40,836 nucleotides of DNA from a virus: IMG/VR virus record IMGVR_UViG_3300020171_000072, positions 1 through 40,836 of that record; one strand, written 5' to 3'. Both the position numbers and the translations under genes were made by a program. This document shows positions 6,835 through 26,704 of this stretch, piece by piece. The notes beneath the pieces were generated by a model. That model was not told where the DNA came from. It did not search any database and saw only the letters and a program-made list of their open reading frames with translations. Numbering within the stretch: the stretch's first letter is position 1; the number at the start of each line of letters is the position of its first letter.

Positions 6835-6990
6835 ATGATACCTGAAGTTCAAGACATAATCAGAGCAAAGATATACGAAGCGGCTCAATACGGTAGAGGA
6901 ACATTCAGCAGGCAATTCGACAGCATTGAACTTGAAGAATTACAAGACATAGCAGACGAATTACTAGAAGGCATTAAAAAATATGAATAA
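6835..6990 (+). CDS. Small acidic protein preceding recT, 51 aa
   Basis: The product is acidic and helical (IELEELQDIADELLEGIKKYE). The start lies about 11 nt after the -10 box, so translation may be from a nearly leaderless mRNA. Its 3' end overlaps the recT start by 8 bp. Function is unknown. Small acidic partners next to recombinases occur in phages, but no homology is claimed. Confidence 0.5.
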   Translation: MIPEVQDIIRAKIYEAAQYGRGTFSRQFDSIELEELQDIADELLEGIKKYE

Positions 6991-7927
6991 GCAAATTACA
7001 ACCGTAAATGATCTAAAAAAAATGACTCAAAGCGATTACGTCAAAGAAAGATTTAACGACGTACTCGGCAAAAAAGCAAATGGGTTTGTAGCCTCTCTTC
7101 TATCGGTAGTTAGCACCGACAATAAATTATCAACAGCCGAACCAAAAACAATTTTAAATGCCGCGATGATAGCCGCTACTCTTGATCTTCCCATCAACCA
7201 AAATCTTGGCTTTGCTTACATTATCGGTTATAAAAATAAAACCGGAGTTGTGGAGGCTCAATTTCAGCTTGGATACAAGGGTTTTATCCAATTAGCCATG
7301 CGCTCGGGACAATTCCAAACAATCAATACATCTGATGTGCGGGAGGGCGAAATTGAGACACACGACAGACTGACCGGCAGTATTAAATTTTCCTGGAAAG
7401 AAGAGAACCGCGATAAACTTCCGGTCATCGGTTACATCGCTTACTTTGAACTTCTAAACGGGTTTTCAAAGTCTATGTATATGACAACCAAAGAACTCAA
7501 AGCGCATGGTGTCAGATATTCCGCGACAGCTAAAAAAGGCTATGGAATGTGGGTAGATAACTTTGATGCCATGAGTAAGAAAACCGTTTTAAAGCTTCTC
7601 TTATCGAAGTACGCCCCTCTTAGCACACAAATGCAGACAGCGCAACTTGCAGATCAGGCAATTATCAGGGGAGAGAATAATTACGAATATGTTGACAATC
7701 AACCTGTATTGCCGGAAGAGGTGGCAAACAATAAAGAAAGAGGAAGAATAATAACTCACATTAAAGACTCAAAGAATATTGAGGCTCTTGTACAGTGTGA
7801 GGAACATATCGTAGACGACGAAACAAGAAAACTCTTTGAAGCTAAAAAGAAAGAATTGGAAAATAAAGAGGCTGACAAATTAGCAAAAGATGTAGATGAG
7901 GGAATAAAAAAGGAGGCTAAAAAATGA
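6983..7927 (+). CDS. recT: RecT-family single-strand annealing protein
   Basis: This 314-aa protein has the RecT hallmarks: ATLDLPINQNLGFAYIIGY, then EAQFQLGYKGFIQLAMRSG, then MYMTTKELKAHGVRYS and KKTVLKLLLSKYAPLS. RecT anneals complementary single strands produced by a partner exonuclease and supports phage recombination and replication. The partner nuclease lies two genes downstream. The C-terminal ~80 residues are acidic and lysine-rich, as in many RecT tails. It overlaps the next gene by 4 bp. Confidence 0.9.
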   Translation: MNKQITTVNDLKKMTQSDYVKERFNDVLGKKANGFVASLLSVVSTDNKLSTAEPKTILNAAMIAATLDLPINQNLGFAYIIGYKNKTGVVEAQFQLGYKGFIQLAMRSGQFQTINTSDVREGEIETHDRLTGSIKFSWKEENRDKLPVIGYIAYFELLNGFSKSMYMTTKELKAHGVRYSATAKKGYGMWVDNFDAMSKKTVLKLLLSKYAPLSTQMQTAQLADQAIIRGENNYEYVDNQPVLPEEVANNKERGRIITHIKDSKNIEALVQCEEHIVDDETRKLFEAKKKELENKEADKLAKDVDEGIKKEAKK

Positions 7928-12806: not shown

Positions 12807-14387
12807 ATGCCATACACGAAAACAAAAAACAAACAAGAAGCAAGAAGAGAATTAATGAAGGGAGCGGAGGAGTTATATAATCTCGTAGCTACTACGCAGG
12901 GACCTCAAGGACGCAATATTGCGATTAACAAAGGGTTTGATTTTGATGTATTTCATGACGGTTTGAAAGTGTCAAGATTCGTTCAACCTCTTGATCCATT
13001 CCAGGCGCTGGGAGCGGGAATACTCCGCGAAGCAGCAGAAAAGCAGGTATCACGAGTAGGCGATGGAACAACATTGACTGTGGTTCTGGGCTATCAGATT
13101 GCGAAAGAAGCGATGATACTTATTGACGCGGGAATCAATCCCATGTCATTAGTTGCAGGACTAGAGCGGGGACGAGATGTATTAATTTCGGAAATAACCA
13201 AACTAGCAAAACCGATAAAAAACGAAAAGGAGAAAATACAGATTGCTACGGTAGCATCACAAGATAAGATACTAGGTGAGATGATCGGCTCAACATACCA
13301 CAAGATAGGAATTGAGGGGATAATTGTCGCCGACGAAAGTCAGTCTAACGATACCACGCTGGAACACGAAGAGGGTATAAGTATAGACAGAGGGTTTTTA
13401 TCTCCTTACTTTATAACTGATCCAAGAACACTCACGGCCACCGTCAAGAACGCTCGTATCTTATTCTTGGAACGGGAGATAGACGACGCGTACGAGTTTC
13501 TGGCATTTTACGAAAATTGTTTGAAACCTAAAAATATCAGAAACCTAGTTATTATCGCCAGTGATGTGAAGGGCGCAGCTCTTGCTTCTCTTATAGAGAA
13601 TAAGCGCAGGGGATTAATGAATATACTAGCAATCAAAGCGCCGGCATTTGGTAAATATAAACGCGAGTTACTTGAAGACATAGCCATAATGACAGGCGGA
13701 CAAGTGGTTGATGAGGCAAGCGATAAGCAATTAAAAGACGTACCATTTGAGTATCTAGGTTTTGCGGAGACGGTTAAGGCGAGTAAGGACGCAACTACAA
13801 TACTAGGCAATAGGGGGAATCTCAAGGCTATCAATGACAGGCAAGAATCAATCAAAATGTTACTCAAAGACCCGGAGTCAGATTTAGACGCAGAAAAACT
13901 GAAAGAAAGACTATCAAAAATGACGGGCGGGGTTTATGTTATCAAGACCGGTGGGGCGACAGAGGTTGAAATGAACGAACGCAAGGAAAGAGTAGACGAC
14001 GCAATCAGAGCAACAAGAGCGGCAATAGAGGGAGGAATCATGCCGGGGGGAGAGGTATCATTCTTATCAATCCGTAAGCAACTGGAGGCAAATAACACAA
14101 ACGAGGAGTACGCTTTCAGGATACTACACAACGCGCTTGAAAAGCCATTTGAGAAACTACTTGAGAATGCAGGACTTAACGCAGGTTACTATATGGCTAA
14201 GATAGAAGATAAGCCCTACGGTTGGGGTGTTAATGTGGTAAGTAATCAGCTTGAGAATCTTGTTGAATCAGGTATAATTGATCCGGCGCTTGTACTAACC
14301 GAGGCACTAAGATCAGCGGTGTCTGTTGCTATATTACTTATCACATGCGACGGGGTAAGCGTGGTTTGTGAAGATGAGAAAAAATGA
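12807..14387 (+). CDS. groEL: Phage GroEL-like chaperonin
   Basis: The 526-aa protein spans the full chaperonin fold. TTQGPQGRN at residues 29-37 and GDGTT at 85-89 form the nucleotide pocket. The Asp of FHDG (51) and VDDAIRATRAA (396-406, with D398) are the ATPase acids. RGFLSPYFI at 195-203 in the apical domain keeps the aromatic substrate and GroES contacts. The C-terminal Gly-Gly-Met tail is absent; it ends in CEDEKK. Many otherwise fixed residues differ (GLKVSRFVQPLDP), which suggests long phage evolution rather than recent capture. The likely clients are capsid or tail proteins. Confidence 0.95.
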   Translation: MPYTKTKNKQEARRELMKGAEELYNLVATTQGPQGRNIAINKGFDFDVFHDGLKVSRFVQPLDPFQALGAGILREAAEKQVSRVGDGTTLTVVLGYQIAKEAMILIDAGINPMSLVAGLERGRDVLISEITKLAKPIKNEKEKIQIATVASQDKILGEMIGSTYHKIGIEGIIVADESQSNDTTLEHEEGISIDRGFLSPYFITDPRTLTATVKNARILFLEREIDDAYEFLAFYENCLKPKNIRNLVIIASDVKGAALASLIENKRRGLMNILAIKAPAFGKYKRELLEDIAIMTGGQVVDEASDKQLKDVPFEYLGFAETVKASKDATTILGNRGNLKAINDRQESIKMLLKDPESDLDAEKLKERLSKMTGGVYVIKTGGATEVEMNERKERVDDAIRATRAAIEGGIMPGGEVSFLSIRKQLEANNTNEEYAFRILHNALEKPFEKLLENAGLNAGYYMAKIEDKPYGWGVNVVSNQLENLVESGIIDPALVLTEALRSAVSVAILLITCDGVSVVCEDEKK

Positions 14388-15910: not shown

Positions 15911-16468
15911 ATGGATAACCAAACGGAACAACCGACAGTTATTACAGATCAGTCTGCAGTCACAGTGCCACTACAGTCTGACAATATAGTTAATCCACAA
16001 GTAATACCACAACCAGCAACAGAGCCGACGCCGCTTGGAGCGCCATCAAAATATAAACCAGAATACTGCGAGAAACTAATTGAGCATATGAGTAAGGGAT
16101 ATAGCTTTGATTCATTCGGAGCAGTTGTTGATGTATGCGAAGATACACTATACGAATGGAAGAAGGTTCACCTTAATTTTTCCGACTCCTATAAAAAAGG
16201 CAGGACATTAAGTTTATATGAATGGGAGAAGATGGGCATACACGCAACGCAGGGTAAACCATTTTTATACAAGCGTAAAATAGCCAGTAAAGACCAAGCC
16301 GGCAATGCCGTAGTGAAAGAAGTAGAAGAACAAGGATCGTTCAATGCAACCACATGGATATTCAACATGAAAAATAGGTTTGGTTGGAAAGACAGAACAG
16401 ACCACACAAGCGGTGATGAGAAGATAGCCAGTCCGTGGCCATACTTACCATCGAAGGATAATGAATGA
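15911..16468 (+). CDS. terS: Terminase small subunit
   Basis: A Pro/Gln/Thr-rich first 45 residues are followed by APSKYKPEYCEKLIEHMSKG, then a helix-turn-helix-like segment (SFGAVVDVCEDTLYEWKK) typical of small terminases that read the packaging site. The C-terminal part (ATTWIFNMKNRFGWKDR) is the usual ending of this group. It overlaps the large subunit by 8 bp. Confidence 0.75.
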   Translation: MDNQTEQPTVITDQSAVTVPLQSDNIVNPQVIPQPATEPTPLGAPSKYKPEYCEKLIEHMSKGYSFDSFGAVVDVCEDTLYEWKKVHLNFSDSYKKGRTLSLYEWEKMGIHATQGKPFLYKRKIASKDQAGNAVVKEVEEQGSFNATTWIFNMKNRFGWKDRTDHTSGDEKIASPWPYLPSKDNE

Positions 16469-17882
16469 TGGTAAATGGATTCCATTCCCCAAGCAAGCAC
16501 TAGCCTTGTCATATTCAGCAGAAACAGTATTTGAGATCTTATTTGGCGGAGCCCGCGGTCCCGGTAAAACAGATGCGGGCATACAATGGCTACATGGAGA
16601 GAAGATAGGTAAATTTGATGATGGACGTGATAAATATTATATACACCACCCACGCTACAGGGCGTTAGTTTTAAGAAAAAGTTATGAGGATTTAGTTGAT
16701 TGGATTGATAGAGCAAGCTATTTATTTAAGTACGCAGGGGCGGAAATAGTAGGAAAACCCGCAGAAATACGCTGGCCTAGTGGTGCAAAGTTTAGGCTAG
16801 GACACTTGAAGGATAGATCATCTTATGAAAAATATTTAGGCCATGAGTATCAAAGGCTGTTAATTGAAGAATTAACATTAATACCACAAAAAAAATATTA
16901 CACACAAATACTAGGATCAATTAGAACCTCACATCCTGAATTAGTGCCGCAAGTATTCAATACCACTAACCCCGGAAGTGTAGGCCATCATTGGGTATAT
17001 GATAGGTTTGTAAAACCTGCCAGACATGGACAGGTATTTCTAGGGAATGATGGAAGAAGTAGGATATATATACCTGCAACAATAGAAGATAACCCGATTC
17101 TACTTAGAGATAAGGGATATATGTTATATCTCAACGGACTCAAGAAGACAGAGCCTAATCTTTATAGAGCGTGGAGGCATGGAGATTGGAACGTATTTGA
17201 GGGACAATTTTTTGACGACTTTGATCCATATGTTAATGTTACAAGCGATTTTATCCCCAAAGATGATATTACGTTTGTCGGTGCTTCTGATTGGGGATAT
17301 TCACCCCGCCCCTTTGTGCTTCTACTTGGAGGCATGAAAAGCATCCCGTGGCAAGGATCATATTTTTATCGTCTATGGTTATACGATGAGATACGTTTTA
17401 CCAAGAAAACACCACAAGAACTGGCGGCAATAATCAAGCAACGCGAGGAAAGAATAGGCGAGTTTGCAATGCTTAAAATAGACCCATCAACTAACACCAA
17501 AGCGAAGGACGGATCGCTTTCAATATTAGATCAATTTACAAGTGAAGGTATACATTTTACTCCCGCGAATAACAACAGGCCAAACGGCTGGCAAGCAGTT
17601 AGAAAATGGTTATCTCTTGCCCCTGATGGATTGCCTTACATGATTATTTCAGATAAATGTAACTTCTTGATTAAGAATTTACCTATGCTGGTATACGACG
17701 AGTTAAAAAAAGATGATCTTGATACTGATGGTCCAGATGATGAAGCAGACGCATTGCGTTACTTGTGTACACATCTTAAATGGATAGACGGTAAAATCTC
17801 CGCTGTCAATTATGATAAAATACAAGAAGCAAAGACAACAATACAAGAGGACAAGGATATTTTCGGAGAAGAAGACGATTAA
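16461..17882 (+). CDS. terL: Terminase large subunit
   Basis: The 473-aa protein has Walker A GGARGPGKTD at 29-38, Walker B LLIEEL at 133-138, and coupling motif TTNPGS at 168-173. A C-terminal RNase H-like nuclease follows with acidic residues in ASDWGY (near 277), KIDPS, and DDEADALRY close to the end. It powers DNA translocation through the portal and cuts the concatemer. All motors are present, so it should be active. Confidence 0.95.
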   Translation: MNDGKWIPFPKQALALSYSAETVFEILFGGARGPGKTDAGIQWLHGEKIGKFDDGRDKYYIHHPRYRALVLRKSYEDLVDWIDRASYLFKYAGAEIVGKPAEIRWPSGAKFRLGHLKDRSSYEKYLGHEYQRLLIEELTLIPQKKYYTQILGSIRTSHPELVPQVFNTTNPGSVGHHWVYDRFVKPARHGQVFLGNDGRSRIYIPATIEDNPILLRDKGYMLYLNGLKKTEPNLYRAWRHGDWNVFEGQFFDDFDPYVNVTSDFIPKDDITFVGASDWGYSPRPFVLLLGGMKSIPWQGSYFYRLWLYDEIRFTKKTPQELAAIIKQREERIGEFAMLKIDPSTNTKAKDGSLSILDQFTSEGIHFTPANNNRPNGWQAVRKWLSLAPDGLPYMIISDKCNFLIKNLPMLVYDELKKDDLDTDGPDDEADALRYLCTHLKWIDGKISAVNYDKIQEAKTTIQEDKDIFGEEDD

Positions 17883-24240: not shown

Positions 24241-24828
24241 ATGGGTAAAGCAACATCATTAGCTGGACAACCAGCACGATATAATTCAGTAGCTCCAACG
24301 ATTACGGATGGGGCAGCAGTGGGATTACAGGTAGACGTTAATGGTAATTTAAAGACAATTCCTTCGGGTGCAGTCGCTTCTGGCGCAGCAGACTCAGGTA
24401 ATCCGGTTAAGGTAGGGCTTAAATATAACGCTACTCCTCCAACTCTTGATGATGGAGATAGAGGAGATTTACAGGGGGATGGCAATTCAAATCTGAAAGT
24501 AACGCCAGCCACCACTCTCGACAGAGTCAATGACGCAATTACTAACTATCCCGTCGGGTGCAATATGGCTGTAGTAGACTTAGCCACAGATGCTGATGTC
24601 GTTGTGTCAGCGACTCCCGCCGTATTGGTGGGAATTTATGTGAATACTGATTTTTCCGCCCATGCAGTTAATATTTTGGATGGGGCTGTCACGAAATTGA
24701 TTCTTCCAGCTTCAACTGTCGCAGGGACAGAGAAAGATATGAGGCGTGCAATTTTTGCTACCAGTTTAATAGTAAATTCAGACGATCTGGCGACGGGTTC
24801 GCTGGTTTTGTTCTGGAGGCCATTATAA
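24241..24828 (+). CDS. Virion structural protein, 195 aa
   Basis: Two copies of a beta-type repeat are visible: RYNSVAPTITDGAAVGLQVDVNG and a second, KYNATPPTLDDGDRGDLQGDGN. Each contains a run of the form YN--P-T--DG---LQ-D-NGNL. I have seen such repeats in phage tail or head-fibre proteins. The C-terminal half is a beta domain ending VLFWRPL. It lies between the spike and the DGR target, so tail or fibre assembly is likely. Confidence 0.6.
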   Translation: MGKATSLAGQPARYNSVAPTITDGAAVGLQVDVNGNLKTIPSGAVASGAADSGNPVKVGLKYNATPPTLDDGDRGDLQGDGNSNLKVTPATTLDRVNDAITNYPVGCNMAVVDLATDADVVVSATPAVLVGIYVNTDFSAHAVNILDGAVTKLILPASTVAGTEKDMRRAIFATSLIVNSDDLATGSLVLFWRPL

Positions 24829-24852
24829 TCAACACATTAACCTATATGTATT

Positions 24853-26235
24853 ATGAGTCGAACAGCACTAAACAGAACCACAGCTACAAATAGAGCAACT
24901 GCAACAGCAAGAAATACCTCTGTGAGCAGAACATCAAGGGCTTCCCCAATTTATGGTGTTTCCTGGCTCAAAGGTTCAAGCCCTACGCTAACCAGGATAG
25001 GCGACTCTGTGAATATGGTAGCCGCCGCGGGAGTTGGAATGACTCCGGTCACTAATAATTTTGATTTGGCTGATATTTATAAAGATATTACAGAAGTGAC
25101 GGATGTTTTAGGTAATGTGTTTATTCGTATTCCTAAATTCTATATTAAGAAATGCGATGGAATCTTATATAAAACTTGGGAGATTTCAAAGCAATCTTTT
25201 GCTGGTTCATACTTACCTTGGTGCTTCTGGGATTTCACAAATAGCGTAGAACTTCCATATATTGATGTAGGGAAATACACCGCAGGCCCGCTTGCTACTG
25301 GCAATAAATTGACCTCAGTTGCTGACACCTACCCCCTAATTAATAAAAACATAGTTGATTTCAGGACCTACGCCCAAAACAACGGAGCTGGCTACCAGCA
25401 ACTTGATATTCATGTCATTGATGTTCTCCAGACCCTTTTTATAATCGAATTTGCGACGCTTAATTCGCAATCCATAATGAACGGGTTCGTAAGCGGGCAC
25501 ATAAATGCCGCCCATACTGCGACTGTTGCCGAAACCGGTGTGAATAGGATTATTGTTACAAATGCAGTTGCGGCCAATTATGTTGTCGGTCAACCTATAG
25601 CTATAGGAAGTATTGCCTGGAATTTTTCAGTATTTTACGGTAGAACCATAACCGCGATTGATGTCTATGACGCAAGTAATAAAGCGATTTCTTTTGATGG
25701 CGCGGCGGCTAATATTTCTATAGGTGATATTCTGTGCAATATTGGCTGGAAAAATGGATTTTCAAGCGGTATCGTGGCTTCAAGCGGATCACTCACAAGC
25801 AATAGTGATGGCAAAAATCCCTTCAAATACCGAGGCATTGAAAATCTATTTGGCAACATCTGGCAATTTGTTGACGGCGTAAATATCAATGAATACCAGG
25901 CGTGGATTTGCAAGAATGCGGCGGATTATGTAAGTAATGTTTTTGCCTCGCCATATTTGCAGTTGAGCTATGTAAATGCGAACACAGACGGAAATCCGAT
26001 CGAGATGGGGTTTGACGCCAATAATCCCTTTGCCGCTTTACCAAAAACAAACGGAGGAAGTTCATCTACATATTATAGTGATTATTATTGGAGAAATACC
26101 GGTCAGGGGATCGCCCTTTTCGGCGCGCACTGGTACTACGGGGTCAATGCGGGGCTGTTCTCTTGGGATCTGTACTACGGCTCGGGTCACACGAACATCA
26201 ACGTCTCCTGCCGGCTTCTTAAAAAAGCTCTTTGA
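24853..26235 (+). CDS. Receptor-binding-type protein with C-type-lectin/FGE-like C-terminal domain (DGR target)
   Basis: The 460-aa protein has a Thr/Arg/Ala-rich N-terminal stretch and a tail-fibre-like region (YGVSWLKGSSPTLTRIGD). A C-terminal FGE-sulfatase/C-lectin-type domain follows: YRGIENLFGNIWQFVDG from residue 326, then ALFGAHWYYGVNAGLF at 421-436 and SCRLL near the end. This is the layout of DGR variable proteins. The variable stretch (420-436) has His/Tyr/Val where the downstream template has Asn and Asp codons. It probably binds a host surface receptor whose recognition can be diversified. Confidence 0.8.
   Translation: MSRTALNRTTATNRATATARNTSVSRTSRASPIYGVSWLKGSSPTLTRIGDSVNMVAAAGVGMTPVTNNFDLADIYKDITEVTDVLGNVFIRIPKFYIKKCDGILYKTWEISKQSFAGSYLPWCFWDFTNSVELPYIDVGKYTAGPLATGNKLTSVADTYPLINKNIVDFRTYAQNNGAGYQQLDIHVIDVLQTLFIIEFATLNSQSIMNGFVSGHINAAHTATVAETGVNRIIVTNAVAANYVVGQPIAIGSIAWNFSVFYGRTITAIDVYDASNKAISFDGAAANISIGDILCNIGWKNGFSSGIVASSGSLTSNSDGKNPFKYRGIENLFGNIWQFVDGVNINEYQAWICKNAADYVSNVFASPYLQLSYVNANTDGNPIEMGFDANNPFAALPKTNGGSSSTYYSDYYWRNTGQGIALFGAHWYYGVNAGLFSWDLYYGSGHTNINVSCRLLKKAL
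26111..26160 (+). repeat. DGR variable repeat (VR)
   Basis: This 50-bp stretch in the 3' part of the receptor-binding gene matches 26325-26374 at 42 positions. All 8 differences (offsets 8, 15, 18, 24, 27, 30, 34, 45) lie where the downstream copy has A; here they are T (4), G (2) or C (2). None of the 37 non-A positions differs. This is the adenine-specific signature of DGR mutagenic homing. Confidence 0.85.
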
Positions 26236-26243
26236 GAGGGATG

Positions 26244-26267
26244 TTAAGGGGGAATCCTCCCCCTTAA
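26244..26267 (+). terminator. Perfect 10-bp hairpin 9 nt after the DGR target stop
   Basis: TTAAGGGGGA (26244-26253) and TCCCCCTTAA (26258-26267) form a perfect stem with tetraloop ATCC. It may be a terminator, but position and size also match the hairpin/cruciform that lies just downstream of the variable region in the Bordetella phage DGR and aids homing. Confidence 0.65.
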
Positions 26268-26324
26268 AAATATATGAAATATAAATTAATAATTATAAAA
26301 AACATAGGGACTTGAGATGCGCTT

Positions 26325-26374
26325 TCGCCCTATTCGGCACGAACTGGAACAACAGGGACAATGCGGGGATGTTC
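26325..26374 (+). repeat. DGR template repeat (TR) or TR fragment
   Basis: This copy has AAC codons where the variable repeat has His or Tyr codons, and 13 adenines in 50 bp, 8 of which differ in the VR. Homology stops sharply at both ends, so the part matching the last ~24 VR-protein codons is missing. It lies in a 226-bp spacer (26236-26461) with no convincing gene; a 55-codon ATG frame from 26317 crosses it in a different frame and is probably chance. Confidence 0.8.
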
Positions 26375-26461
26375 AAAAACGAAGTAACAGCTATAATTTC
26401 TTCAACGAAGTATTTTTATCACCTGCATTTATTCTATATGCAAGAAAGGCGGTGAGTTATT

Positions 26462-26704
26462 ATGGAAAAAAACACATTCGGTAAAATAACAGACGGATTA
26501 TTGATAACAAGTCCAACGCAACGAGAGGGCTATAAACCATTGGTTTATGCTGCCATTCCTGAAGGGTTTGACCAGGAGACACAATTTATTGTGCAGTTGG
26601 ACGCGGTAGACCAGGGGAAGGATATTTATTTAGGGGTTGAGGTAAAGGAGTTGCCTGTTGAAGATCCAAAGCAGACGGAGAGGATGATGGAAGGAATCCT
26701 CTAA
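26462..26704 (+). CDS. Hypothetical protein, 80 aa
   Basis: AAGGCGGTGA precedes the ATG. The product is beta-like, with PLVYAAIPEGFDQETQFIV and an acidic C-terminus. No match to the DGR accessory four-helix protein (Avd) is evident: it lacks that family's helical composition. It may be a small virion or assembly protein. Confidence 0.6.
   Translation: MEKNTFGKITDGLLITSPTQREGYKPLVYAAIPEGFDQETQFIVQLDAVDQGKDIYLGVEVKELPVEDPKQTERMMEGIL

Follow-up and report, generated by a model that had tools for sequence, protein, structure and literature searches.

A phage tail gene followed by half a DGR template repeat and the end of a reverse transcriptase: a DGR very probably lost by deletion

The window, meaning the whole 40,836-base stretch of viral DNA analysed here (IMG/VR record IMGVR_UViG_3300020171_000072), contains a tail gene followed by a hairpin, a partial repeat of the 3′ part of that gene, the C-terminal end of a DGR reverse transcriptase (RT) and one further gene (Table 1). 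The tail gene product has a single match, the phage tail family phrog_5302; the C-lectin/FGE-like fold assigned to it in a preliminary description received no confirmation from Pfam. Within the variable region (VR), a template partner survives for positions 26111-26160 only. The recipient half of the locus is undamaged; it comprises the VR with its 3′ end and the hairpin (26244-26267).

Table 1. Features of the tail gene locus, in positions of the window
Feature	Position	Strand	Basis
DGR target gene, 460-aa tail protein (phrog_5302), variable C-terminus	24853..26235	+	PHROG match; relatives share the C-terminal variable block
Variable region (VR)	26111..26221	+	coordinates from the TR/VR match span, gene end -124 to -14, in intact relatives
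Probable IMH (homing anchor), 3′ end of VR, intact	26205..26221	+	position of the conserved VR 3′ end of relatives; boundary inferred
Post-VR hairpin, 10-bp stem, 4-nt loop, intact	26244..26267	+	z = -3.07
Conserved TR leader, AGGGATATRGGGTGCGCGCT-like	26304..26324	+	alignment with 16 relatives
Template repeat (TR) stump, first 50 of about 111 nt	26325..26374	+	repeat search; comparison with TRs of relatives
Presumed scar of the deletion, linking TR nt 50 with RT codon ~315/316; microhomology possible over 0-3 A	26375..26376	+	nucleotide alignment with relatives
C-terminal remnant of DGR reverse transcriptase (model positions 316-346)	26377..26469	+	C-terminal HMM and nucleotide match to intact RT ends
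Shine-Dalgarno-like AAAGGCGGTGA of next gene, within RT remnant codons RKAVS	26445..26455	+	sequence; intact relatives arranged alike
Next gene, 80 aa, not part of the DGR	26462..26704	+	homologues follow RT or RT remnant in relatives

The 50-nt repeat pair formed by 26111-26160 and 26325-26374 has 84% identity and a spacing of 214. The copies are mismatched at 8 of 50 sites, and at all eight the downstream copy has A. As that copy holds 13 A in 50, random placement would produce such a pattern with a probability of C(13,8)/C(50,8) = 2.4e-6, so that chance is not a reasonable explanation. The coordinates and the A-only differences, both already given in the preliminary description, were reproduced exactly by the repeat search, and its odds of about two in a million agree with the recomputed value. 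The pair is the best repeat match for the 26111-26160 stretch in the window (2.4e-9; runner-up 0.13), and a wider search of both strands for a second template copy gave nothing beyond chance-level matches. The downstream copy is template-like, with AAC codons at the variable sites (NWNNRDNAG). With 8/8 differences at template adenines, as in a functional DGR, and the same layout together with an RT in relatives (see below), the pair is, judged by its sequence, a DGR variable/template pair, as had been proposed.

Relatives of the target gene occur in viral contigs and in Bacillota genomes, as prophages. In 10 of the first 23 relatives, an RVT_1 RT lies directly behind the target gene. The intact order is: target gene with VR, hairpin, TR of about 111 nt, spacer, RT and next gene; the TR, located between the gene and the RT, matches the gene end from -124 to -14, and the RT lies about 300 nt behind the gene. 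Differences between TR and VR are nearly all at template A, and the few at other bases are mainly 3′ (CAGACTCTTA versus CGGCTTCTTA), resembling IMH* and IMH; the conserved VR 3′ end carries fixed TR/VR differences, one of them at a non-A. The SQ/TSQ motif and YxDD are the mark of DGR RTs (PMC3521204), and the full-length RTs listed for this family possess TSQ in 31/33 and YxDD in 33/33 cases. Most intact relatives carry, just past the gene stop, a short-looped hairpin rich in GC. An intact homologous cassette is present in relatives at the very place of the window locus. The exact TR pattern of the window, for which a matching template in related phages had been suggested as a check, had no match in viral_contigs. 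A close sister with an intact cassette was sought via the capsid and the gene preceding the target, and none was found; the nearest genomes have different tail modules, and an RT of this family is missing from them.

The template of the window is cut short, as had been noted, and corresponds to the first 50 nt of the ~111-nt TR, whereas a functional DGR has a full TR with an IMH* matching the VR 3′ end. The homing anchor had been placed at the GC-rich end of the 50-nt block; this placement is not supported, as the TR/VR match of intact relatives extends 61 nt further, to CAGACTCTTA in the TR and CGGCTTCTTA in the VR. Since the 3′ half with the homing anchor and the spacer are missing, the residual stump presumably cannot serve as a template. 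Directly behind it, the window from 26377 reads KRSNSYNFFNEVFLSPAFILYARKAVSYYGK and matches the final 31 codons of the RT of relatives. A C-terminal HMM built from 33 intact RTs, run against six frames of the window, found this as the sole above-threshold place (E = 3.7e-5); the full-length RT model gave only E = 0.02, yet with its best place at 26377-26469 too. The nucleotide alignment of the remnant to intact RT ends agrees (AAAACGAAGTAACAGCTATAATTTC and AAAGGCGGTGAGTTATTATG). The remnant is short (31 aa) and diverges after SYNF, and its frame continues to a stop at about 26487. It abuts the TR stump, in the orientation and at the place expected of the RT end of relatives, as in an inactivated DGR.

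The downstream copy might instead have arrived by recombination, as a fragment of some other variable gene. Such an event is known in the family, where in L087 (1996-2250) the 5′ part of the TR is continued by the 3′ end of a different variable gene, while L073, with a 97% identical target gene, is intact. The window copy, in contrast, has AAC codons, the NWNNRDNAG reading and the conserved TR leader, and it continues into RT codons and not into a VR, which makes this origin extremely unlikely.

No RVT_1 RT was found in the 40,836-base window, nor any RT elsewhere in the record by the RVT_1 search and the RT HMM in six frames; in place of the SQ-motif clade RT of a functional DGR, residues ~316-346 alone remain. 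The earlier statement that no RT exists is therefore right for a complete enzyme and overlooked the remnant at 26377-26469. The search for bAvd gave no match in the window, and as control genomes likewise gave none, it is uninformative on Avd absence. The tRNA and Rfam scans gave no matches. No terminal repeat of 8-299 bp was found in the window, and records of this type can be genome fragments; the description "apparently complete" is unproven. An intact system with its RT beyond the assembled contig could be imagined for such a record, but the RT site about 300 nt behind the gene already holds the C-terminal remnant and the TR is truncated, so this reading has hardly any probability.

For a comparison across the family, 82 loci with enough sequence, the window included, were classified, contigs of one population being counted separately: 45 with RT (a few of these RT runs end at a contig edge), 15 broken (a partial TR and/or RT remnant, or a full TR whose RT is lost) and 22 with neither, the latter being an upper bound on traceless loci, as the L061 group and L036 show short RT-end traces by eye. 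The hairpin is present in 34/45 intact loci, 10/15 broken loci and 1/22 loci without DGR trace (intact versus none: Fisher 2e-8, a value too small since relatedness is ignored and several "none" rows are near-copies, with a clear direction). The hairpin of the window resembles the target-recognition hairpin of phage BPP-1, which was shown to matter there (PMC3240598). These counts bear on a non-autonomous DGR, in which the VR would be diversified in trans by a relative, co-infecting or resident, that supplies the RT and a full TR. In favour of it, the window keeps the VR, the probable IMH and the hairpin, and IMH plus hairpin are enough for a target in BPP-1, given a cognate TR (PMC3240598). 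The retention of the hairpin in two-thirds of the broken loci points the same way. Nevertheless, the local stump cannot be the template, the record is without RT, and the kept elements fit a recent loss equally well; diversification in trans is accordingly rated as quite improbable.

The locus is very probably a DGR killed by one deletion. The preliminary description had left a choice between an RT acting in trans and a recently disabled DGR; the second option is favoured because the RT C-terminus persists, fused to the TR stump, and an RT in trans is unneeded to explain the pair. The ancestor would have had the target gene with VR, hairpin, ~111-nt TR, spacer, RT and next gene, and mutagenic retrohoming would have put A-derived changes into the VR. 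A later illegitimate deletion would have joined TR nt 50 to RT codon ~315/316, which is the simplest account of the join between stump and remnant, and would have removed the TR 3′ half with IMH*, the TR-RT spacer and RT residues 1-~315. The receptor-binding tip would now be fixed, with changes arising only through normal mutation or the exchange of modules. Judging from the A-only stump, few mutations seem to have accumulated after the deletion, although the 37 non-A sites of the stump bound the age loosely. The single event, its recency, its selective reason and the loss of function are what we infer from these sequence comparisons; against the disabled-DGR reading stand the divergent 31-aa remnant, the E-value of 0.02 with the full model and the intact sister that was not found. 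In principle, two variants could have been joined during metagenome assembly, and TR/VR repeats and population diversity do hamper the assembly of DGRs. A chimera made from the two ends (TR and RT) of an intact cassette is still very improbable, as the junction shares at most about 3 nt, far under assembly word lengths, with no long shared word at the scar, and relatives have 11 comparable but different scars, some recurring in separate contigs (L015/L022, L092-L094).

The 14 broken relatives represent 11 distinct junctions, all different from that of the window. Scars of the window type, a TR stump joined to an RT C-terminus, are found in L048 (TR 35 nt and RT 268-346) and L065 (TR 47 nt and RT 301-346); in L006 and L092-L094, RT 311-346 lies straight behind the gene, and further scars of the same kind occur in L053, L015/L022, L068 and L013. 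Deletions differ even between near relatives: L015/L022 versus L068 (genes 89% identical) and L094 versus L095 (95% identical). The L068 junction lies within CAGGC, and because CAGGC stands at both ends in the sister L015, the break looks like a short-homology deletion. Recombination between TR and VR is apparently a second route of DGR loss, since the L087 template enters a different variable gene while L073 is intact. On the gene tree (constant part of the target gene, 67 rows), the intact state requires 17 changes, at least 12 of them forced by well-supported branches, and their direction, as given by the remnants, is evidently loss. Distances between RTs correlate with those between the genes (Mantel rho 0.44, 0/2000 permutations), which is what inheritance accompanied by losses should give. 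In five lineages, deletions start within the first ~70 nt of the TR (35, ~43, 47, 50 and ~68 nt); a hotspot there was noticed post hoc and is not claimed.

Several relatives show states of their own. In L015 (6548-6892) and L022, an in-frame internal deletion joins RT residues 1-57 to 278-346 beside a complete TR, possibly making them template-only, RT-dependent elements. The template stump of L095 (4197-4310) looks changed at adenine sites (GGCTGGTACATTGGC), as though it had been given VR-type changes. In L059 and L100, the target reading frame appears to extend beyond its normal stop, up to or into the TR region, and a full RT follows.

The last RT codons of intact relatives (e.g. AAAAAGGCGGTGAGTTATTATGC) contain a stretch resembling a Shine-Dalgarno sequence, and often the next gene starts within them as well; the L095 deletion ends immediately before AAAGGTGGTGAG. 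Because the ribosome-binding site of the next gene lies in these codons, the RT tail may have been spared since longer deletions would hurt the translation start of that gene.

Inactivated DGRs with A-only TR/VR pairs have already been described (Schillinger et al. 2012, PMC3521204, Fig. 4), and A-only repeats with a broken RT were read there as very recent inactivation. Both those cases and the window have a broken RT and repeats differing at template adenines only. However, the former carry a nonsense mutation, frameshift or insertion in the RT and intact repeats, whereas in the window the deletion takes the core of the RT along with half of the TR. The window is thus of a known kind, a disabled DGR, with an unusually clear scar. 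With the DGR of Bordetella phage BPP-1 (mtd/avd/TR/brt) it shares a tail receptor-binding target, a VR at the gene 3′ end, A-directed changes, IMH/IMH*-like fixed differences (seen in the family) and a hairpin right after the VR (PMC3240598). Unlike in BPP-1, the intervals between gene, TR and RT in the family are too short to hold avd, the donor half is deleted in the window, and the hairpin loop of the window is ATCC instead of the GRNA consensus. Close parallels are the tail DGRs of the family itself (L002, L005, L016, L073 and others, in viral contigs and Bacillota prophages), where gene, hairpin, TR leader, TR, the C-terminal codons of the RT and the next gene are arranged as in the window; the 45 classified members have the RT, and the window has the two cassette ends only.

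The disabled-DGR reading explains a puzzling template/variable pair without RT. Schillinger et al. (PMC3521204) put forward repeated loss as a possible explanation for the patchy occurrence of DGRs, and no description of family-wide repeated DGR loss was found in the open literature searched. Absence of a DGR in phage surveys can mean recent, repeated loss and not original absence. A broader, rather doubtful proposal is that phages of this family repeatedly shed the donor half (TR 3′ end, spacer and RT) and keep the recipient half (VR, IMH and hairpin), the tip being locked or diversified only in trans by the RT and template of a relative; if true, the window would be one of many "diversify, then lock" lineages. 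With about 80 related loci that range from intact to erased and include close sister pairs, the worth of keeping a mutation engine can be tested within a single gene family.

The nearest genome relative, L103 (96% MCP identity), carries a different tail module: L103 12554-13635 and window 24241-26704 diverge from residue 37 of the gene preceding the target. As other close capsid relatives likewise carry different genes at this locus, the tail gene and its broken DGR appear to form a module that can be exchanged. The terminase large subunit (16461-17882) is nearest to Manatee Spring phage (38.5%) and TM7 (Saccharibacteria) phage (35.4%), and the cellular relatives of the tail gene are Bacillota prophages, so the host is uncertain. 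A RecT-family single-strand annealing protein is encoded at 6983-7927 (E = 6e-43) and might favour recombination at the tail/DGR locus. The window also encodes a phage chaperonin of the Cpn60/GroEL family at 12807-14387 (Pfam E = 9e-58; PHROG groEL E = 1e-116).
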